A stretch of DNA of 64,000 nucleotides, taken from assembly GCF_026151205.1 (NCBI RefSeq), contig NC_087072.1, forward strand, positions 1,507,375-1,571,374, written 5' to 3'. Every line of letters begins with the position of its first letter. Positions within the stretch are counted from its first letter, which is position 1. The stretch is from Bolinopsis microptera. Its lineage: Eukaryota > Ctenophora > Tentaculata > Lobata > Bolinopsidae. Of the stretch, positions 1 through 35,600 are shown one piece after another. The notes beneath the pieces are model-generated. The model had not been told where the DNA came from. It worked only from the letters and a program-made list of their open reading frames with translations, and did not search any database. The position numbers were made by a program, and so were the translations under genes.

Positions 1-3000
1 TGAATCTCCTGTTAGAGAGTGAGTTATGTTGAATCCCCTGTTAGAGAGTGAGTTATGTAGAATCCCCTGTTAGAGAGTGAGTTATGTAGAATCCCCTGTT
101 AGAGAGTGAGTTATGTTGAATCACCTGTTAGGGAGGAGTTATGTTGAATCCCCTGTTAGGGAGGAGTTATGTTGAATCCCCTGTTAGAGAGTGAGTTATG
201 TTGAATCCCCTGTTAGAGAGTGAGTTATGTTGAATCACCTGTTAGAGAGTGAGTTATGTTGAATCCCCTGTTAGAGAGTGAGTTATGTTAAATCCCCTGT
301 TAGAGAGTGAGTTATGTTGGTTCCCCTGTTAGAGAGTGAGCTATGTTGAATCCCCTGTTAGAGAGTGAGTTATGTTGAATCCCCTGTTAGAGAGTGAGTT
401 ATGTTGAATCCCCTGTTAGAGAGTGAGTTAGGTTGAATCCCTTGTTATAGAGTGAGTTATGTTGAACCCCTGTTAGAGAGTGAGTTATGTTGAACCCCCT
501 GTTAGAGAGTGAGTTATGTTGAATCCCCTGTTAGAGAGTGAGTTATGTAGAATCCCCTGTTAGAGAGTGAGTTATGTTGAATCCCCTGTTAGAGAGTGAG
601 TTATGTAGAATCCCCTGTTAGAGAGTGAGTTATGTTGAATCCCCTGTTAGAGAGTGAGTTATGTTGAATCCCCTGTTAGAGAGTGAGTTATGTTGAATCC
701 CCTGTTAGAGAGTGAGTTATGTTGAATTCCCTGTTAGAGAGTGAGTTATGTTGAATCCCTTGTTAGAGAGTGAGTTATGTTGAAACCCCTGTTAGAGAAT
801 GAGTTATATTGAACCCCCTGTTAGAGAGTGAGTTATGTTGAATCCCCTGTTAGAGAGTGAGTTATGTTGAATCCCCTGTTAGAGAATGAGTTATGTTGAA
901 TCCCCTGTTAGAGAGTGAGTTATGTAGAATCCCCTGTTAGAGAGTGAGTTATGTAGAATCCCCTGTTAGAGAGTGAGTTATGTTGAATCCCCTGTTAGGG
1001 AGGAGTTATGTTGAATCCCCTGTTAGAGAGTGAGTTATGTTGAATCCCCTGTTAGAGAGTGAGTTATGTTGAATCACCTGTTAGAGAGTGAGTTATGTTG
1101 AATCCCCTGTTAGAGAGTGAGTTATGTTGAATCCCCTGTTAGAGAATGAGTTATATTGAACCCCCTGTTAGAGAGTGAGTTATGTTGAATCCCCTGTTAG
1201 AGAGTGAGTTATGTTGAATCACCTGTTAGAGAGTGAGTTATGTTGAATCCCCTGTTAGGGAGTGAGTTATGTTGAATCCCCTGTTAGAGAGTGAGTTATG
1301 TTGAATCACCTGTTAGAGAGTGAGTTATGTAGAATCCCCTGTTAGAGAGTGAGTTATGTTGAATCACCTGTTAGAGAGTGAGTTATGTTGAATCCCCTGT
1401 TAGAGAGTGAGTTATGTTGAATCCCCTGTTAGAGAGTGAGTTATGTTGAATCCCCTGTTAGGGAGTGAGTTATGTTGAATCCCCTGTTAGAGAGTGAGTT
1501 ATGTTGAATCACCTGTTAGAGAGTGAGTTATGTTGAATCCCCTGTTAGGGAGTGAGTTATGTTGAATCCCCTGTTAGAGAGTGAGTTATGTTGAATCACC
1601 TGTTAGAGAGTGAGTTATGTAGAATCCCCTGTTAGAGAGTGAGTTATGTTGAATCCCCTGTTAGAGAGTGAGTTATGTTGAATCCCCTGTTAGAGAGTGA
1701 GTTATGTAGAATCCCCTGTTAGAGAGTGAGTTATGTAGAATCCCCTGTTAGAGAGTGAGTTATGTTGAATCCTCTGTTAGAGAGTGAGTTATGTTGAATC
1801 TCCTGTTAGAGAGTGAGTTATGTTGAATCCCCTGTTAGAGAGTGAGTTATGTAGAATCCCCTGTTAGAGAGTGAGTTATGTTGAATCCCCTGTTAGAGAG
1901 TGAGTTATGTAGAATCCCCTGTTAGAGAGTGAGTTATGTTGAATCCCCTGTTAGAGAGTGAGTTATGTTGAATCCCCTGTTAGAGAGTGAGTTATGTTGA
2001 ATCACCTGTTAGAGAGTGAGTTATGTTGAATCCCCTGTTAGAGAGTGAGTTATGTTGAATCCCCTGTTAGAGAGTGAGTTATGTTGAATCCCCTGTTAGA
2101 GAGTGGGTTATGTTGAATCCCCTGTTAGAGAGTGAGTTATGTTGAATCCCCTGTTAGAGAGTGAGTTATGTTGAATCCCCTGTTAGGGAGTGAGTTATGT
2201 TGAATCCCCTGTTAGAGAGTGAGTTATGTTGAATCACCTGTTAGAGAGTGAGTTATGTTGAATCCCCTGTTAGAGAGTGAGTTATGTTGAATCCCCTGTT
2301 AGAGATTGAGTTATGTTGAATCCCCTGTTAGAGAGTGAGTTATGTTGAATCCCCTGTTAGAGAGTGGGTTATGTTGAATCACCTGTTAGAGAGTGAGTTA
2401 TGTTGAATCCCCTGTTAGAGAGTGAGTTATGTTGAATCCCCTGTTAGAGAGTGAGTTATGTTGAATCCCCTGTTAGGGAGTGAGTTATGTTGAATCCCCT
2501 GTTAGAGAGTGAGTTATGTTGAATCACCTGTTAGAGAGTGAGTTATGTAGAATCCCCTGTTAGAGAGTGAGTTATGTTGAATCCCCTGTTAGAGAGTGAG
2601 TTATGTTGAATCCCCTGTTAGAGAGTGAGTTATGTAGAATCCCCTGTTAGAGAGTGAGTTATGTAGAATCCCCTGTTAGAGAGTGAGTTATGTTGAATCC
2701 TCTGTTAGAGAGTGAGTTATGTTGAATCTCCTGTTAGAGAGTGAGTTATGTTGAATCCCCTGTTAGAGAGTGAGTTATGTAGAATCCCCTGTTAGAGAGT
2801 GAGTTATGTAGAATCCCCTGTTAGAGAGTGAGTTATGTTGAATCACCTGTTAGGGAGGAGTTATGTTGAATCCCCTGTTAGGGAGGAGTTATGTTGAATC
2901 CCCTGTTAGAGAGTGAGTTATGTTGAATCCCCTGTTAGAGAGTGAGTTATGTTGAATCACCTGTTAGAGAGTGAGTTATGTTGAATCCCCTGTTAGAGAG

Positions 3001-4218
3001 TGAGTTATGTTGAATCCCCTGTTAGAGAGTGAGTTATGTAGAATCCCCTGTTAGAGAGTGAGTTATGTTAAATCCCCTGTTAGAGAGTGAGTTATGTTGG
3101 TTCCCCTGTTAGAGAGTGAGCTATGTTGAATCCCCTGTTAGAGAGTGAGTTATGTTGAATCCCCTGTTAGAGAGTGAGTTATGTTGAATCCCCTGTTAGA
3201 GAGTGAGTTAGGTTGAATCCCTTGTTATAGAGTGAGTTATGTTGAACCCCCTGTTAGAGAGTGAGTTATGTTGAACCCCCTGTTAGAGAGTGAGTTATGT
3301 TGAATCCCCTGTTAGAGAGTGAGTTATGTTGAATCCCCTGTTAGAGAGTGAGTTATGTTGAATCCCCTGTTAGAGAGTGAGTATTGCATTGAATCCCATG
3401 TTAGAGAGTGAGTTATGTTGAACCCCCTGTTAGAAAGTGAGTTATGTTGAATCCCCTGTTAGAGAGTGAGTTATGTTGAATCCCCTGTTAGAGAGTGAGT
3501 TATGTTGAATCCCCTGTTAGAGAGTGAGTTATGTTGAATCCCCTGTTAGAGAGTGAGTTATGTTGAATCCCCTGTTAGAGAGTGAGTTATGTTGAATCCC
3601 CTGTTAGAGAGTGAGTTATGTTGAATCCCCTGTTAGAGAGTGAGTTATGTTGAATCCCCTGTTAGAGAGTGAGTTATGTTGAATCCCCTGTTAGAAAGTG
3701 AGTTATGTTGAATCCCCTGTTAGAGAGTGAGTTATGTTGAACCCCCTGTTAGAAAGTGAGTTATGTTGAATCCCCTGTTAGAGAGTGAGTTATGTTGAAC
3801 CCCCTGTTAGAGAGTGAGTTATGTTGAATCCCCTGTTAGAGAGTGAGTTATGTTGAATCCCCTGTTAGAGAGTGAGTTATGTTGAACCCCCTGTTAGAAA
3901 GTGAGTTATGTTGAATCCCCTGTTAGAGAGTGAGTTATGTTGAATCCCCTGTTAGAGAGTGAGTTATGCTGAATCCCCTGTTAGAGAGTGAGTTATGTTG
4001 AATCCCCTGTTAGAGAGTGAGTTATGTTGAATCCCCTGTTAAAGAGTGAGTTATGTTGAATCCCCTGTTAGAGAGTGAGTTATGTTGAATCCCCTGTTAG
4101 AGAGTGACTTATGTTTAAATTCTTGTTAGAGAGTGAGTTAAGTTGAATCCCAGCTGTTAGAGAGTCTGAGAGTGAGTTATGTTGAATTCCCTGTTAGAGA
4201 GTGAGCTATGTTAAATCC
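1..4218. repeat. 29-bp minisatellite array, about 145 copies
   Basis: The unit is 29 bp with the invariant core GTTAGAGAGTGAGTTATG followed by a variable TTGAATCCCCT or TAGAATCCCCT block. A minority of 28-bp units carry GTTAGGGAGGAG. The array runs from the window edge and decays between about 4100 and 4218 into indel-bearing units. Variant units are arranged in longer blocks that recur (see findings), so the array grew by duplication of multi-unit segments. A 29-bp period cannot keep a reading frame and no long ORF exists here. The true left end lies outside the window. Confidence 0.97.
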
Positions 4219-8160: not shown

Positions 8161-8489
8161 ATTTGACCAAAACCCATAATCATGGGTAGAGTGAACCGCT
8201 GCCAGTGTCTCTCTTTTCCAAACAAAAGGAAATGATATTAATTTGAGGAACCGTCCGCAAATTCAAATTGATACCGAGAATGAAATCGGTCGCTCGCTTT
8301 TCCCATTCAATAAGCTTTATTACAATTCGTAAGCCGTGAATGAATGGGAAAAGCGAGCGACCGATTTCATTCTCGGTATCAATTTGCATTTGCGGACGGT
8401 TCCTCAAATTAATATCATTTCCTTTTGTTTGGAAAAGAGAGACACTGGCAGCGGTTCACTCTACCCATGATTATGGGTTTTGGTCAAAT
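8161..8489. repeat. Near-perfect inverted repeat with 148-bp arms and 32-bp loop
   Basis: The left arm 8161-8308 is repeated in inverse at 8341-8489 with only about one or two differences (for example CAAATTCAAATTG against CAATTTGCATTTG). The spacer is 32 bp. A transcript in either direction would fold into a hairpin of about 148 bp. The sharp arm ends suggest either a very recent fold-back or MITE insertion, or an assembly palindrome. No target duplication is obvious. The ORFs crossing the loop are products of the symmetry. Confidence 0.9.
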
Positions 8490-25036: not shown

Positions 25037-26091
25037 CTACTGGATGACGGCTACAGAGGTCACAAACGATCTACACATGGGACATTTATCAAATATATTA
25101 GAACTACACGTGTCACAGAGACATGCATGCCGACATGGCAACAGTATCATGGACACCTGTTTCTCCTGACAAACCACACACTGGCTAGTCTCGTCTCCAT
25201 GGTAACCACACTGGCTAGTCTCGTCTCCATGGTAACCACACTGGCTAGTCTCGTCTCCATGGTAATACCGGTACAATGGTAACCACTCTCCATTTCTCAA
25301 ACTTATCAGCTCGTTTAGTTTCCTGCTTGTTTCCGTGCAGCGTTCGTCTTTAATGTGGAACACTGTCAGAAGATTCACGATCTTAGAGGTAGAGTTAGAG
25401 TTGGAGTTAGAGTTAGGGTAGAGTTAGAGTTAGAGTTAGAGTTAGAGTTAGAGTTAGAGTTAGAGTTAGAGTTAGAGTTAGAGTTGCTAGGTGTGGGATG
25501 ACAACTCACGGTGCAGAGAACAACCAGCGGTACGGTTTTACGTGGAGGAGAGCCCATTTTTAGCTCCATATTTGGGGACACTTTTAACTGGTGTTTACCT
25601 GGACTGAACGACAAAGGTTCATCAGCTGATATAGAATTAGATGATAACTGAGATACAATTTGATAACTAGAGGACACGTGACGCTGTGACGTCACACCGT
25701 GACGCTGTGACGTCACACCGTGACGCTGTGACGTCACACCGTTAGTTCCTAGAGTCAGATGTGCCAGTAAATTAGTCCCCACTCCCCAGAAATATTGAAC
25801 AGAACACCTTTCAAAACACTCAAACTCCAGCGCAATTCCCTCAACCAGGCTGTCGTAGCCACAACTGACTGATACTTTAAAAGGTATGGATACAGGTGAA
25901 AAGGAAGCACTGGGTCGCTCATCTAGATTAAGTCTGGTATTGGACGGGGAGTCGTCAGCAATGTGAAACCTCTGTGAGAGACGAAACAAGAGGAAACAAA
26001 TAGAGAAGAAGAAGAAGTATATTATGGGGAGGTAGACGGTGTAATCCTCGTCAGAGGAGATCAAGCTCCTTAACATTTGGGGTGGAATCAT
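25037..26091 (-). CDS. CGRRF1-like membrane-anchored RING E3 ubiquitin ligase
   Basis: Two exons: 25510-26091 and 25037-25381, phase 0, giving 308 aa (human CGRRF1 has 332). The family is a p53-linked, ER-associated ubiquitin ligase. The 128-bp intron (25382-25509) begins ACC then GTGAGT and ends CTCTAAG. Residues about 17-36 form the membrane anchor (YLPIIYFFFFSICFLLF). The middle has a CSVQYFWGV block matching the family's CYWGCSVQ region and a VPLVVL strand. The RING spans 262-297 with spacing C-x2-C-x11-C-x-H-x3-C-x2-C-x7-C-x2-C, the cIAP-like type. The start ATG precedes the anchor directly. Oddities: three separate tandem repeats lie in or between its exons, and unspliced frames would read the intron as an (Asn-Ser)n run. 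It lies 560 bp downstream of the alpha-arrestin stop. Confidence 0.85.
25176..25265 (-). repeat. 30-bp in-frame triplication next to the RING domain
   Basis: Three exact or near-exact 30-bp units encode GYHGDETSQC three times. The last unit supplies the first zinc-binding Cys of the RING finger. Frame is kept because the unit is a multiple of three. Confidence 0.95.
25387..25490 (-). repeat. (TTAGAG)n hexanucleotide microsatellite inside the CGRRF1-like intron
   Basis: About 16 copies of GAGTTA fill most of the 128-bp intron. Interruptions such as GGGTAGAG near 25415 break the hexamer phase, which explains why the naive coding frame fails here. On the gene strand the units read CTCTAA, so they also provide the pyrimidine-rich tract before the acceptor. 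Confidence 0.95.
25678..25740 (-). repeat. 21-bp in-frame triplication with CRE palindromes
   Basis: Three exact copies of a 21-bp unit encode GVTSQRH three times in the first exon of the CGRRF1-like gene. Each unit contains the perfect palindrome TGACGTCA, so the exon carries three evenly spaced CREB/ATF core sites. Confidence 0.95.
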
Positions 26092-26650: not shown

Positions 26651-29600
26651 TCAGTTTTTCCAAGGTCTGTACAGCTGATCAGGCGGTAACGTTTTATGGT
26701 AGTTCGCATCAGGTTCCAATATCATCGTCACTGGCAACCTAAAATAGGTTTTATAATTATACATTATGAATATAAACAAATAGCTTAGCCAAAACCCGAC
26801 CCCATCTCAGATTTAGCAACTTAGGTTGTCCATCACTATAAACTTGAAATATAGTTATTTAACATTAACCATTAGCCTATTAATTTAGTCCTTGGTTGAT
26901 TTAGATGTGAGCGGAATTGGTATGAGGGGTAGTGTCCACTGTCCAGTGAAGAGCTAAAATGGCCTACATTTAGCTCATCCAGGAACGATCACAATTAGTC
27001 TTACGACTCCATCCAATCTCAACTCTCTGGCAGTGAGCCAGGCAACGTTTTTATTGTAGTATAGGACACTATGGCGGAAGTCACGAGGGCGAAGGACCCA
27101 AGGGCAGAAGTTTCCTAAAAGGTTAGACATGAGGGTGAATTTGAATTCGCCCTCGTACCGTGTCCTTCGCCCTCGTGTTGGATGGCCACTATTTCAAGAA
27201 AATTTATGGGGCATTTAAGGATGCCCCATATTTCAGGATTCATCAGAAGTTCAGGAACCTAGCGATCATAAAATTCAGATAACATTGCTGGTTACTCTTC
27301 TATGCCGTGTTCAGTATTTTCAATACCAGAATCTTTCAATGAACCAGAAATCTGTTAATTTATATTACATTATATATTCTGATATTAAACGGGTAGCTTA
27401 TTTTGATAAAATAACATCGTGATCCGGCGTGATTAATTATTTTAATTGAAGTACAACGGCTGCACCCCTGACTTTTTAACTTAATAAGAGACGTATATAT
27501 TAGGACATTTGTAATTTGATAAAAAGTTTTGGTGTGTGAATTAAAGGTCTTTAAAACAAAACATATTACATGTCAGGATTCATAAGAAGTTCAGAAGCCT
27601 AGCAATTATAAAATTCAGATAACATTACTGATTACTCTTTTATGCCGTGGGAGTAAATTAGCAGGGCACAGTTTGCCCCTTGTAGTCCAAATTTACATTA
27701 TAATTACCTCATTGCTAGAATTGATTCCTTAAAACAAATTTTCCAAGAATTGTTACAGTTTCTTCCTCCTTGCATGTTGTACCCTCTTTGAGAGTGAGAC
27801 CTATTACTGTACGAATATTTTTCAAAATTTGCAGGATTTTTCCTTTGACCCTTAATTAAATTGGCACAACAAAATCTTTCTGGATTTATCATTTCACATT
27901 GCTAGATTTCAATTCTGGAAGCAAATTTCCTGAAATTCTTTTCGAGAGAATGCAATACGCATCCCTTTTTCGAACTACACTTATTTCGTAAGAGCTGCTT
28001 GCAGGCCCTAATATGCATTTAAAATCGTATTATTTTAATCGTTCTTGAAACTGTGTTTGAATATGATCTCTATTGCCAAATTGCTCAGCTAGGCCTTTTA
28101 CACGTTTTGCTGTTTTTGAAATTTAGGCTGTGGCCAAAGCGCGAGCTAAATTAGAAAAACTCTAAGATTTTGGCATGAAGAAAATCATTCCTACACCCCT
28201 GCCACAATCTGTTATCAGTTATGATTTTAATTAAGTGCACCATCGTTCTGTTGGGAAAGAGGTATCTCAATTCTCAATTTACGGGGTGATGGAATTCGGC
28301 AAATTTATTTTTATTCTTATTGTACGTTCTGACTGCTGTAATAGTTTTAAATTTAAAAGTTAAAACTAGTACAGTTTTTTCGTAATTCGCAGGCTAATAT
28401 TACCGCTCACTTCACATGATAAACAAAAAAAATGTTCCTAAATAACTACTCTAACTTGAATAATGATTTGACATAGCTCCAGTGACTTACGTTGCGTCAA
28501 TACTAGTCGCGAAAGGGACTTCACATCGTACTGCCAAGACGTAGTTACATTTGATGTTTCTAGAGTTGGTTGTGGGAAGCACGTCGGACTCTGATAAGTC
28601 TAAATCTCGCTTAAAAACTGCTTTCTCGCCCGAAGGAACATCCTCAAACTCCAACATATACTCCTGAAAAAAAAGAGCTTACTTCCTTGTGGTAATTTCT
28701 TTAGAATCTTACTCGGTATTTGAAATTGGTCACAGCTATTATTACAAGGAAATCAACCAAACGTCATGTTTTAATACGTTCCATTTTGTTGAGTGGATTG
28801 TATGTCTTAATAAATACTGTGTTTCGTTTCATTCTTAGCTTAAATAAGTTAGAGATAATGTGTTAAATAAGTTAGACATAACATAATGTGCTTTGTAAAA
28901 TATGAACCGAGTAGTATAATTAGGGATTGTTGGCAACATCATTATCGCATTACACTATTACAGTGAATCATTTGCTATTGCCTATTTTCTATCCTTCTCA
29001 CTTTGTTTCACCCATATCTTTAACTGGTAACAACTGTTTCACTTTTCAGACTGTCAAGCCATGATATTCTATTTATAATTAAATCATAATTAATTCAGTT
29101 GCATAATATGGATAATAGACATGATTAGATATCTGGCGTTTTATTATGAAGCAGATTTAAACGGTTATTGGTTAATAGACAACGGTATGAACTGCACATT
29201 TTCTCGAATGGTGCCGCATTTTTTGATTAAATCTAAAGAATATTGAACAAAACCTCGTTACCAATTTATGTGTGGCTAATAATGTTGTTTTTAATGTTGC
29301 TTTTAATGGCGCTTTTAATGTTGCTGTTAATGTTGCTTTTAATAGTGCTTTTAATATTGCTTTTAATGTTGCTTTTAATGTTGCTTTTAATGTTGCTTTT
29401 AATGTTGCTTTTAATTTTGTTTTTAATGTTGCTTTTAATGTTGCTTTTAATGATGCTTTTAATGTTGCTTTTAATGCCTAAATGTGATGATAATCCTACC
29501 AGGATGAAAGGATTTCTACTGTTAATAGCAGTGCTCCTACAAGGGGAGGCATTGCAAGTTGGACAAAAAGTAAAGTTAAGAGGAGGTGGTCTTGCGCTCT

Positions 29601-32600
29601 ATGTTAACAAACGCGTTTGTGATTACGATAAAATACAGGAACTCGAACTCAATCTGAGTCCAGAAGAAGTTACTTGCGGAGAATTTCAATTGCTTAAAAT
29701 CAACAATTTTAAAAACGGAAATAAGACAAAAATCATCGTAAATTTCTACCGCTCGCCATCCACAAGCCCTAAAAAATTCCTTGAAAAGTTTGAAAACGTG
29801 CTCAGGGGTCTTGATAGACACTCCAGAAAGCAGATAGTCTTCCTGGGTGATGCAAATATTGATCTTGTAAAATACGATACCGACGCTTACAGCCAGGATC
29901 TTATAAGCTTACTAGAAAAATATGGGTTTGCCCAGACTGTCTCCAAGCCTACCAGGGTAACTGACCACAGTGCAACGCTTATTGATCACGTGTATACTAA
30001 TCACGTGACCAACGTTATTAGTTGTAATGTCGTGACGTTGGATATGTCAGATCATCTCGCGGTTAGCACGACCATTAGTTTAGGAGCCACACCTAGTTTG
30101 AACGAGCGATTCCGTAGTCAACGTGTAAAGAACAACAACACTAGCTTGAAATTAGAGGCCCGTGTATTTAACGAAGCTAATCATGCTAAATTCAAAGAGC
30201 TTATTGTAAGTGAGACCTGGGATGATGCTACCTCCTCAACGTGCGCTGATGAACAATACAATTCCATCTATCAAACGTACATGAAACACTACAATACTGC
30301 ATACCCCCTGAAGCGCGACAGTTCGAGAAGAAAATTCGAAAGAGCTGACCCAAAGCCTTGGATCTTACCCTGGCTTGAGGCGGCATGCAACCGCAAGAAG
30401 TTACTTTTTTTTGACAAAACTATAAATCCATCACAAAAAGACTGCGACGCGTATGATAAAATGAAAAAGTTTTGTCACAAACATGTGAATCTAGCCAAAG
30501 AAAAGTACTATAAAAAAATGTTTGACAAATACCAAAACTGCTCTAAAAGTCGATGGAAAATTATCAATGGCCTCCTGAACCGTAACAGAAAAAAGTTCGG
30601 ACACACCCGTCTGAAGGACGACGATGGCACGATTATAAGCTCCGATCTGGCAGTCGCTGAGAAATTTAACGGCTACTTCTCCGGTATTGCAGCCAGTATC
30701 AAGAGGCAAATCGCTGCCCGTCGAACCTTTGACCCAGGTGGTTTCAAGCATTTTCTTAAGGCTTCGTGTAGTAACTCGATGTTTCTTAAGCCTACATCAC
30801 ACGGTGAAGTCCAAAAGATAATATCAGGGCTTAAGAACAAGTCCACACTCGATTGTAAAATTGAGCCACTGAAAATTGCAAACAGCTGCGAAAACTTTAC
30901 CAGGGCACTAGCTAATGTCATTAACTGTTCGTTCTCCAGTGGTACCTTCCCAAATGCTCTAAAAACTGCGAAAGTCGTTCCTATCCACAAAGGTGGTTCA
31001 AAATTGGAAGTAGCTAATTATAGGCCGATCTCTCTTTTGGGATCATTCTCGAAAATTTATGAGAAACTTATGCATGCTCGTGTTTTAGAATTTTTAGATA
31101 AGAACGATTCTCTTTTCGAAAATCAATACGGATTTCGGCCAGGAAGATCGTGCGAACATGCACTGCTCAATGCCCAAAATTCTATACTACACTCTCTGAA
31201 TAAGAAACAAATTTCCCTACTGCTCCTGCTCGATTACAGTAAAGCCTTTGACGTGCTTGATCATGAGACCTTGCTTAAGAAGCTTGACCATTATGGGATC
31301 AGGGGAGTCGCGCACGAATGGTTTAGATCTTACCTTTGTAATCGATCTCAATACGTAACTTTAAACGGAACTTGCTCTTCTAGCATGCCCATAGTTTACG
31401 GCGTTCCTCAGGGTAGCATTCTAGGACCTCTCTTATTTGTAATTTATATAAACGACCTACCTGGAATTAGTGATTTTGCAAAGTTTATCCTTTATGCCGA
31501 CGACGCAAACATATTAATTAGTGGAACCACCCTAGAAGAAATACAATTAAAAGCTAATCAGCTAATTTCACGTCTTGTAGATTGGGTAGGTGCTAATGGG
31601 CTATCTTTAAATGTAAAAAAGACGTGTTACATGATTTTCACTAGAAAAAGATTCGACTTCAGCGGCTTTAATTTGTCCATTGACAACACTGTAATCGAAC
31701 GTAAGACTGAAGCAAGATTTTTAGGAGTGATCCTAGACGAAAAGCTCACTTGGAAAAAACACATTACGGCAGTTAGAATAAAGATGGGTCGCTACCTCGG
31801 AGTTATGTATAAGCTAAAGCACCTTCTACCTATCAAAGCCCGCCTAAACATTTTCCAAAGCCTTATCCAATCCCATCTAAATTTCTGTTCTTTAGTGTGG
31901 GGATTTGCCTCAAAATGTCACATTGATTCTCTGTTCACCAAGCAAAAGCAGGGAATTAGAGCTGTTATGTCAGGATATGTAAATTATAGATATAAAGACG
32001 GCAATCCCCCGGAGCACACAAAAAGTGCGTTTAGATTGCATAATATCCTAACAGTCCATAGCGTCATTGTAAAAAACGCTCTTATTCTACTACACAAAGT
32101 AAGGAACATGCCAAGCCTTCTCCCTAAATCCATCAAAGAACTTTTCCCTCACGATATTCCCACCTATAATTCCACATACGAACATAACCTTTCTTGGTTC
32201 ACAACTTACAACAGCCCAACATTTAGAAATACTCTTTTCTTCAAAGGACCCATGCTCTCTATTACAAAACTAAGTAAGGATATAACTATTCCAAGTTCTA
32301 CCTTTTCAATTGAAATCTTTAAAAATTCAGCTAAGCGCGAACTCCTCAAGCTGCAAAGCTCAGGAGACGATGAAAATTGGCCAAATTTCTTACTTTATAG
32401 TATACCTGGGCTAAGAAAGTCTCAAAGAGAAGGGCGCTTGCAAATAGACTACAGCACCGAGTTATAAGTAAGCGACAACGCGTAAAGAAAGATCACTCGC
32501 GACAAATGACTATGATCTTTTATCAACAACATATCATTTTAATTTCACTGCCATTTATATTGCCGAATTTACATCTGCCGCGCAAAACTTTTTATCTATT

Positions 32601-35600
32601 ATTACTAGTAATAGTAATTAGCATGTTTACAAATTGCGACTTCAACCAGTTTTGCAGACCGTTAGTTATATAGTACTTTTAGTAGGGCATTTATTTTAAT
32701 ATATTTTATTTAACATTATTATATTTTATTGTGACTTCTATAATTTCATTTATGTAATAACCATTGATTAATAAATTGCGGCACACGCCAACCTCCACCG
32801 TGGGGTTTCAAAACAAACAAAAGATCGGTTAACTACCCCGACCACTTTATTAGTCGTCTATCCAACGGAAGAGTTGCGATCTCAAGTTCTGCAGCGGACA
32901 AAGAATGGATTGTGAGAAATGGTCTAGCAGGAAAAGGTTACAGTTTCGAGTCTCAATCTGGGGGACTTCTCCGACACAGAAATTACCAAGTCTGGGTTGA
33001 CCCATACTCTAACACGGATCTCTACCAAAAAGATTCGTCTTTCGCCATAGAAGGAGGGCTTGCCGGAAAAGGAATCACTTTCAACTCCGTCAACTATCCA
33101 GGTTACTTCCTTCGACATGCCGGATACAGTCTTTGGATCAATACCAACGATGGCTCAAACCTTTTTAGCTTAGACAGCTCATTTGAAGTTGAAGGAATTT
33201 ATTAACGATCGGAGCAAATGGACTACCCGAGACTCATAATTAGTCATAAATATTACTGATTTGTCTTTAAAATATAATTAATACTTGAAAATTTGATTAA
33301 AAATCAGGGTGAATTAACGAAATTTACAATTATTCAAATTAAATCTTTGGGAAAAAATGTATTTCTATTCAAAATGTAAAAATTTTGTTTTATACAAGCT
33401 TCTATTCCATTCACGGGATAGCCAGTTAAAGTTACCAATACCTTTCAGAAAATGTATGCTATAATTTTCAATTTTGTATAATTTTTTCATGATTAAAAAA
33501 AAAGCCAATTAAGCCAAATAAAAATTCATGTTTCATACTGCAGTAGGATAGTCATCAAAGTGAACTTTAACTAGATTAGATAATATCTTAGTATAGAGTG
33601 TATTCCGTGTAAAATTATCTTTATCCCGGTTGTTGCGACAAGTAAAAATGCTCTTATTAGGGAAAGAAGTTTACTCGACGTTTCAATGTAACTACATCGT
33701 ATTCATGATCTCAAATTATTTGTTATATATATAGTAGTGTTGAAAGTATTAAAATTCATTAGAGTATAATAGTGACACGTGATTCCCAATTCTACTAACT
33801 AACTAGTTACCATGGTTACTTGTATGTTTCCTACCTTGGTGCGTATATTCCTTTGAGATCTGTTTGCTAAAACCTTCAGCTTACGGAACAGCACAGCAAT
33901 AATGTTCTTACATACCAAAGCGGTCATGTTGGTGATCTGAAAGAAACGGTCACTTAAATTACTTTGACTCACTTTGAGGTATAATACCGGATATGGTCAC
34001 GATGCAAAGAGTGTAAAAACTGAAATGTACTTTTGCCGATTGAACTACATAATATAACGTACCAGTCCAAATTAATAACCGATCGATGTTCCACAAGAAC
34101 AGATAACATGTTGTTGTTGAGAAAAGACAATTTTATTATTTATCACCAATTCAATACACAATCAATAAATATTTATCCGAATAAACTTGATTTAAAATTA
34201 AATGATACAAGTATGCTAGCAGCTAACGTGCTTGTATTTAATCAATATACATATATAATATATTACCCATCCATAGACACAGTGTTTCGTCCTATTAGGA
34301 CTCATCAGTATGGCTCAAATCATCAAGGTTGGTTTTGCCGATGGCGGGTATTGATCCAGCAACCTTGCGATTACTGGCCCAACGCCGCGCCACTGGGCCA
34401 CCAAGGCCTTAATAATGAGGGAATTACATAGGTACCAGAGTGCTCTACAAACTCATTACAAGTTAGGAGCTTTGCATTTAAGCTGAGCGGGTATTATATA
34501 CATTGGGAAACTAAACTGTGTTTGTTTAACTGACCTCTAACGTTAATCCTAAAACGTCGTCGTGTCTGTAGCAATCCTTATCTATTCGCACACTAACAGT
34601 AATATAGCCTCTGGGAAAACACCCGAATGTTTTTATCTGTTCGGTAATGTCTTGCTTGCGTTGTGTTTCCGTTTGTTCTGGAGTGGAATGAATGAGAAAC
34701 GGCTGTACTGCTTCCTGTCCTATTGATACATCGTCCTTTTCCAGCACTGCTTTTATTGAGTATTGTACCTTTGGAAGACAACCAATGAGAGATTGATTCA
34801 TGTTTATTTAATTAAAACAAGTGATGACTATCAGCTACATTACACAATCACATAACCTAACACAGTAACATCACTATAGTTTCTCATGCTCTAAGCATGA
34901 GCCTATCACACGATCCTTAAGTCATCTGAGAAGCTAGAACTCTCATTTTTTCAGGACAAACGTAATTTAAATGGCCAAACACTATTCAATAAAATTTTAT
35001 AATAAGCATCATAGAAAATTAGACTAACCGAGGCTTCGTGCATCTTTATATCTTCCCATTGGAGAGTTCTTTTACAAGATTCCAAACTAAAAGAGGACGG
35101 TAGAAACTCCGGCACCACATAACTAAACTTGAAGAAATACCTCCCCACGGGTATGGGTTTGTTAAAAGCACGAACCAGGATACGCTCCTCGAACAGTTTA
35201 ACTTCTTCTGAATAGTTAGCCCTGCCGGAAAGTCACACTTAAATCAAGGTGAATTCTTGTTAGCTAGCGGGATCAAGCTCTATATAATTTACAACTGGGT
35301 GAAACAACTAATATTTAACTAAAATAAGTAAACTTACGTTTTGCGGCCCTCTTCCCAGCCCACTTTATTGTAACCCTCAACTACGGCCACAAGTTTAGAA
35401 ACTCTTATCGACTCCTTGGCTACCAAGTATATTTTACCAGTGAGTTGTTCGCCAGGCAGATAATGATCTTTCTCTGTTGCCAGTTGTAACTGTCGATTGA
35501 AAATAAAGAAAAAGCAGGAATTTATTAGCATGTGAAAAATCTATTAACGCTGCAATTTAATTAAAACAATTAATCAAGCAGTAGATTCGAGTATAAAATG

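Follow-up and report, generated by a model that had tools for sequence, protein, structure and literature searches.

A hammerhead ribozyme motif in a ctenophore arrestin intron belongs to a dispersed, retrozyme-like family of tandem units

Why should an arrestin gene of a ctenophore carry a self-cleaving ribozyme motif in one of its introns? The motif was predicted in a 64-kb stretch of Bolinopsis microptera DNA, hereafter the window, and was first likened to the intronic hammerheads of amniotes, which are conserved isolated motifs. The intron location is indeed common to both. Otherwise the likeness does not hold: the window hammerhead is not an isolated motif but has dozens of nearly identical mobile counterparts, and it lies in a truncated insertion of this mobile family. 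We consider it very probable that what stands in the window is a truncated non-LTR retrozyme of ctenophores, reverse-transcribed from a circle or multimer at a (TA)n target, probably by a Penelope-like element. Ctenophores are a very early animal branch, and such a copy would extend hammerhead retrozymes to them.

The ribozyme motif and its host gene

The hammerhead motif is real. Rfam Hammerhead_1 (RF00163) matches it from end to end (34315-34269, minus strand) with 35.9 bits against a gathering cut-off of 34 bits (E 2.6e-5, computed for 64 kb and 4227 families), a significant score for the type I hammerhead originally predicted. It is the sole Rfam match at the gathering threshold in the whole 64-kb window; at E 10 there are 19 matches, and the 18 others all fall below their own cut-offs. 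The invariant core (CTGATGA...GAAA) and the three helices (I, CCATA/TATGG; II, GTCCT/AGGAC; III, ACA/TGT), with the structure open at helix I, were confirmed on the minus strand in both the sequence and the Rfam alignment, and the 3' product is predicted from the core to begin at 34275, in agreement with the first reading. A chance or artefactual origin of the motif was ruled out by the covariance score and by the lack of matches for the reversed pattern. Minimum-energy folding of the 48-nt strand prefers another fold, with no hammerhead (z -1.17), which counts against the motif; that such folding misses the hammerhead fold is usual for hammerhead motifs. We infer from the sequence that the window hammerhead would cleave itself. 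Coordinates are given in Table 1.

Table 1. Coordinates of the ribozyme, the element and the host gene in the window
Feature	Position	Strand	Basis
Type I hammerhead ribozyme	34269..34315	minus	Rfam RF00163 and sequence
Predicted cleavage site, C17 (34276) / T (34275)	34275..34276	minus	computed from core
5'-truncated retrozyme copy, unit 63-277 and a further 7 nt beyond the cleavage site	34269..34490	minus	L072 identity, boundaries
Hairpin domain, unit about 137-236	34317..34416	minus	RNAalifold over 24 insertions, divergence profile
AT-rich 3' flank of the insertion (GGGTAATATATTATATATGTATATT...)	34236..34268	minus	sequence
Arrestin intron with insertion, GTCAGT...TTTCTTTCAG, 598 nt	33937..34534	minus	splice sites
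Arrestin exon 5' of the intron (exon 4 in the original prediction)	34535..34768	minus	translation, Pfam, P0001/P0002
Arrestin exon 3' of the intron (exon 5 in the original prediction)	33835..33936	minus	translation, Pfam, P0001/P0002

That the motif lies in an intron, on the sense strand of an arrestin gene, is borne out by the splice sites, by the intron limits (34534-33937) and by the encoded domains. Four alpha-arrestin exons (35489-35338, 35221-35029, 34768-34535 and 33936-33835) have consensus splice sites and join into 227 aa, with Pfam matches to Arrestin_N (2.5e-11) and Arrestin_C (6.3e-8); the name 'intron 4' follows the original numbering, and the exons located here begin at 35489. 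The predicted cut would fall 259 nt past the 5' splice site. The nearest of nine related proteins, P0001, which comes from a 1147-nt contig, is identical at 225 of 227 residues, and P0002, labelled Mnemiopsis leidyi, is 91% identical to the arrestin product; these proteins place the host among ctenophores, near Mnemiopsis. P0001 spans the junction of exons 4 and 5 intact and without a gap, so splicing of the arrestin gene does take place in this animal or in one very close to it. As the animal of P0001 may or may not carry the insertion, this junction is no test of the effect of the ribozyme. A lone ribozyme such as that of the window would make at most one cut in the intron, during transcription, and could not by itself make a circle. 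Most likely, the insertion is neutral for the arrestin gene.

A dispersed family of 277-nt units

The ribozyme forms the 3' end of a 222-nt copy, of which 221 nt are identical to the unit of another locus, L072 (C1:2500001-2503500); the window copy is therefore probably young. At L072, the four cleavage-to-cleavage distances are each exactly 277 nt, and the array comprises 4.5 units (99% matches) framed by a 16-nt word, ATATAATTATATATAT, common to both flanks. Seven tandem units are found at L075. With 277 nt, a G+C content of 45.5% and a longest stop-free run of 45 aa over three units, the unit is non-coding, lies within the 170-400 nt of metazoan retrozymes and, like them, stays below 50% G+C. 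In the family, every tandem repeat carries a type I hammerhead, the window copy itself being single, and no significant match to a further copy was found in the 64-kb window. The circular fold of the unit reaches -84.6 kcal/mol, against -67.8 +/- 4.3 kcal/mol in shuffled sequences (0 of 200 as low, z -3.9); no hammerhead fold is visible in this minimum-energy structure.

The genome searched comprises 264,652,675 bases (264.65 Mb) in 232 contigs. A 39-nt ribozyme pattern, allowing up to three mismatches, occurs at 83 places, 59 of them exact, and its reversed control at none. These places make up 59 loci: 46 contain a single ribozyme, the other 13 between two and six. As the scan allows no gaps, ribozymes with insertions or deletions are missed by it; at least one locus scored as 'single', C3:3634551-3635989, is in fact an array of divergent units. 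The covariance search of the genome gave 69 matches, 67 above the cut-off (74 scored of 35,380 first-look candidates). We examined 51 loci picked from the genome searches, 47 of them distinct, against the 59 of the pattern scan. All match the unit, the matches of L044, L049, L066 and L106 barely exceeding the ribozyme, and the element match is longer than one unit in 18 of 48 stretches. The insertions are dispersed and bear marks of retrotransposition: 5' truncation, nearly fixed 3' ends and the 16-nt duplication at L072. Flanking duplications were scored in L072 and the window copy, since TA tracts blur them elsewhere.

These copies bear directly on what the window ribozyme means. Its type, its place in an intron, its sense orientation, its invertebrate host and its link to a retroposon all stand as first described; what changes is the interpretation, as the ribozyme belongs to a mobile retrozyme family of tandem repeats. 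A domesticated ribozyme, kept in place because cutting of the pre-mRNA regulates arrestin expression, would account for an intact, sense-oriented, intronic hammerhead, but seems scarcely credible for one of 83 genomic places whose identity with another copy (221/222) extends beyond the ribozyme over the whole fragment, hence a probably young one. We find it very improbable, too, that the family is ordinary satellite DNA, amplified at the DNA level with the ribozyme as a passenger. Tandem arrays of near-identical units would fit a satellite, whereas the dispersal over 59 loci, 46 of which have a single ribozyme in the pattern scan, does not, and neither do the nearly fixed 3' junction, the variable 5' truncation, the flanking duplication at L072 and the target preference, all marks of retrotransposition.

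A ribozyme-free query of 223 nt gave 68 genome matches, of which 60 reach the ribozyme edge, many of them neighbouring units of the same arrays. A lenient core pattern is passed by 55 of these 60; 50 retain the core together with both helices II and III and an intact cleavage site, and the exact 43-nt ribozyme is present in 40. Among the 20 whose body identity is at most 91%, 12 retain this whole set and six are exact. Over 22 full-length insertions, represented by one unit each, differences from the L072 unit amount to 40/968 in the ribozyme and 427/4906 in the body (Wilcoxon p 0.0025). Related copies varying at the core but not around it, which would have spoken against the original prediction, are therefore not what we see, the ribozyme differing at fewer sites than the body. 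Nevertheless, unit positions 13-92 are conserved at least as well in the same insertions, so the ribozyme is not set apart by its conservation, and hammerhead conservation as proof of selection is weakened. The most variable part of the unit, positions 133-232 with 0.10-0.21 differences per site, includes the hairpin. In an RNAalifold analysis of 24 insertions, hairpin changes are mostly one-sided, with two pairs changed on both sides, and this covariation is too little to lean on.

Could the hairpin be a tRNA-like Pol III head, and the retrozyme a tRNA-derived SINE of the Sm-alpha type? The hairpin contains an A-box-like TGGCCCAGTGG at 34400 and a degenerate B-box-like word, and four divergent copies (L091, L098, L102, L105) carry TTCGATTCC or TTCCATTCC. 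L072 gives a full-length tRNA match at the right place, albeit a weak one of 17.4 bits for a cut-off of 29, and 5 of 47 loci start at unit 137-140, the 5' edge of the hairpin. However, ARAGORN finds no tRNA in 19 element loci (L072 and 18 others), and six other loci have no RF00005 match up to E 10, so that a tRNA-like head is not recognised by either tRNA model. Moreover, unit 133-232 is the most variable part, and the 5' ends spread round the unit. As the ARAGORN and Rfam tests do not support it, we do not call the element a tRNA-derived SINE, an origin that we regard as quite improbable.

Two observations on particular copies deserve mention. Three ribozyme copies (C5:12574064, C11:18623081, C13:6380865) have the identical two changes in the core region (TTGATCAG); judging by these, a probably inactive version has spread, perhaps inside another repeat. 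A retrozyme array at L073 is interrupted within helix III by about 3 kb of inserted DNA (1206-4172), which has long inverted ends (TAGTACAGACAGATCCGTCTG...) and is flanked by TGT on both sides; it looks like a DNA transposon.

Outside the ctenophore genome, one pattern scan of the IMG/VR collection returned one contig (L001:7214-7239), in which 26 exact bases of the core and helix II stand in unrelated surroundings and likely represent convergence; a wider ribozyme pattern gave no match. A two-part pattern retrieved 32 contigs from public collections, none with the element, and no GTDB contig was found.

Insertion junctions and the probable mover

The last bases of the element are TATGGAT or TATGGGT in 45 of the 47 distinct loci, which places its end 7 nt beyond the cleavage site. 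The two exceptions are L088 and L106; in L073, a different transposon interrupts the element. By contrast with this nearly fixed 3' junction, the 5' ends are spread over many unit positions in the 47 loci. A TA run of at least 8 nt lies within 30 nt of the 3' end in 33 of 44 insertions, of the 5' end in 24 and of both in 18, whereas 42 of 3176 background 30-mers from the same loci contain one (L073, L088 and L106 were dropped from this count). The 30-nt flanks of the window copy have no TA run of at least 8 nt, the longest being 7 nt (3') and 6 nt; both its flanks contain the 8-nt word ATGTATAT, which may be its target duplication.

These copies extend across their own cleavage site, so their template was not cut at that point: it was a rejoined circle or else a multimer left uncut, two possibilities that the junction data do not separate. 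In internal units, TATGGAT is followed by AAAU, for which an AUUU upstream of helix I is a possible pairing partner; in the window copy, GGGT in the place of AAAU could pair by G-U wobbles.

The following route, which builds on the known retrozyme life cycle (PMC7229834), would account for these features. Each ribozyme would cut the transcript of an array, releasing 277-nt monomers, which a host RNA ligase would close into circles. A circle or an uncut multimer would then be reverse-transcribed at targets rich in (TA)n, copying always beginning about 7 nt beyond the cleavage junction; the enzyme would probably be the RT-GIY-YIG endonuclease of a resident Penelope-like element. Copying of more than one unit length would yield tandem arrays, and an early stop 5'-truncated fragments like the window copy.

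Candidate enzymes are plentiful in the genome. Of 150 places scored from 524 candidates, 147 have a GIY-YIG domain, many of these domains lying in frames of 800-1043 aa that appear to have the Penelope-like arrangement, the RT part being recognised by eye. In a tested Penelope piece, the sole Pfam match is to GIY-YIG (3.2e-7), near the C-terminal end of a 628-aa frame open at its 5' side; the RT part of this frame has no Pfam match at E 1e-3 and no match among solved structures. The 3' end of the best-seen Penelope family occurs at 157 genomic places. Among the first 100 listed of these 157, all exact, ATATATAT follows directly in 99, and in the examined loci, a TA tract follows all 11 of the Penelope 3' ends. 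A preference of Penelope elements for simple AT-rich targets has been reported (PMC3846280), and for one of them the pertinent text of PMC11167929 describes reverse transcription that starts internally, not at the 3' end of the RNA. The shared TA target, the reported AT-rich preference and the internal start together make a Penelope-like element the likeliest mover, in line with the proposal in the corresponding section of PMC7229834 that Penelope elements are strong candidate partners of retrozymes. Nevertheless, a shared target is no proof of shared machinery, as TA tracts may serve as targets for many elements.

In 4 of 47 loci (L083:1167-1190, L089:947-961, L100:1690-1712 and L070:1495-1501), no more than 25 nt separate the retrozyme from Penelope coding sequence, in both relative orientations, with a TA-rich tract between the two in L083, L089 and L100. 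No statistic was drawn from this proximity, some other close matches at these loci being unrelated repeats.

A LINE could have moved the same retrozyme in place of a Penelope-like element. The window itself has a long LINE-type RT frame, an uninterrupted ORF of 1076 aa (29237-32467) with RVT_1 (4.6e-34) and endonuclease (4.6e-10) domains, and this LINE copy may be intact. However, the 380 nt after the ORF of this one copy contain no TA tract, and it is the Penelope 3' ends that have the TA target in common with the retrozyme 3' ends. A LINE mover therefore appears unlikely to us, though less so than a tRNA origin of the element.

It is tempting to speculate further that the Penelope-like element moves ctenophore retrozymes by target-primed reverse transcription of an RNA circle that the retrozyme makes by itself, at (TA)n tracts, a proposal that we put forward tentatively. 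The start point, 7 nt past the cut, is beside AUAAAUAU, which could serve to close helix I and also to anneal to a TA primer. As AUAAAUAU would be at the very 5' end of a cut monomer, copying into the remaining element would need rejoined ends. If this is true, ligation is the step that makes the retrozyme RNA a template.

Relation to known hammerhead elements

The element is a new metazoan retrozyme of the kind characterised in PMC7229834, as far as the sections on animal retrozymes in that article define it, and perhaps the first in a ctenophore. No report of hammerheads in ctenophores was found in the open-licence literature; PMC10886601, in its pertinent part, concerns another element. As described in the corresponding sections of PMC7229834 and PMC7761336, metazoan non-LTR retrozymes likewise have a type I hammerhead in a non-coding tandem unit of 170-400 nt with less than 50% G+C, arrays from dimers upwards and dispersed copies. 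The family described here differs from them in its ctenophore host, its (TA)n target and its nearly fixed 3' junction; its circles, moreover, are predicted ones. Retrozymes are known in several animal phyla, and which enzyme moves them is an open question. According to a 2020 review, in its section on these repeats (PMC7761336), the metazoan repeats show no motif revealing the partner. In Bolinopsis, the few copies (59 loci) and the sharp junctions suggest both a partner and a start site, and both suggestions are testable.

Two other groups resemble it in part. Like the SINE-like retroposons Sm-alpha and Sj-alpha of schistosomes, as portrayed in the relevant text of PMC2770079 and PMC8490949, the ctenophore element is short and non-autonomous and has a type I hammerhead; its tRNA origin is weakly suggested and fails the tests made. 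With the Penelope-like elements that have hammerheads in their pseudo-LTRs (the pertinent parts of PMC7761336, PMC11167929 and PMC3846280), it shares tandem or partial-tandem copies, 5' truncation, a possible internal start and a preference for simple AT-rich targets, but, unlike them, it is non-coding in the window. The Penelope pieces of the ctenophore, for their part, differ from the Penelope-like elements of other animals in these accounts by having no Rfam hammerhead: none was found in ten GIY-YIG loci, of which L118-L126 share the Penelope sequence and L117 is not shown to, nor in two extra Penelope pieces, although minimal hammerheads could escape the models.

Several unrelated features were noted along the way. 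Just downstream of the LINE, an open frame that encodes an AbfB (arabinofuranosidase B) domain (32768-33205; 4.7e-28) is oriented opposite to the arrestin gene. On the minus strand at 25037-25423, a RING finger (zf-C3HC4_3, 1.4e-12) adjoins a repeated YHGDETSQCG motif. Lastly, palindromic mir-75-like stretches occur in the window (8272-8378) and at L098:3502-3617 and L079:1522-1628, with 41, 46.4 and 37.5 bits, respectively, for a cut-off of 60; they are probably a family of palindromic repeats, not a microRNA.
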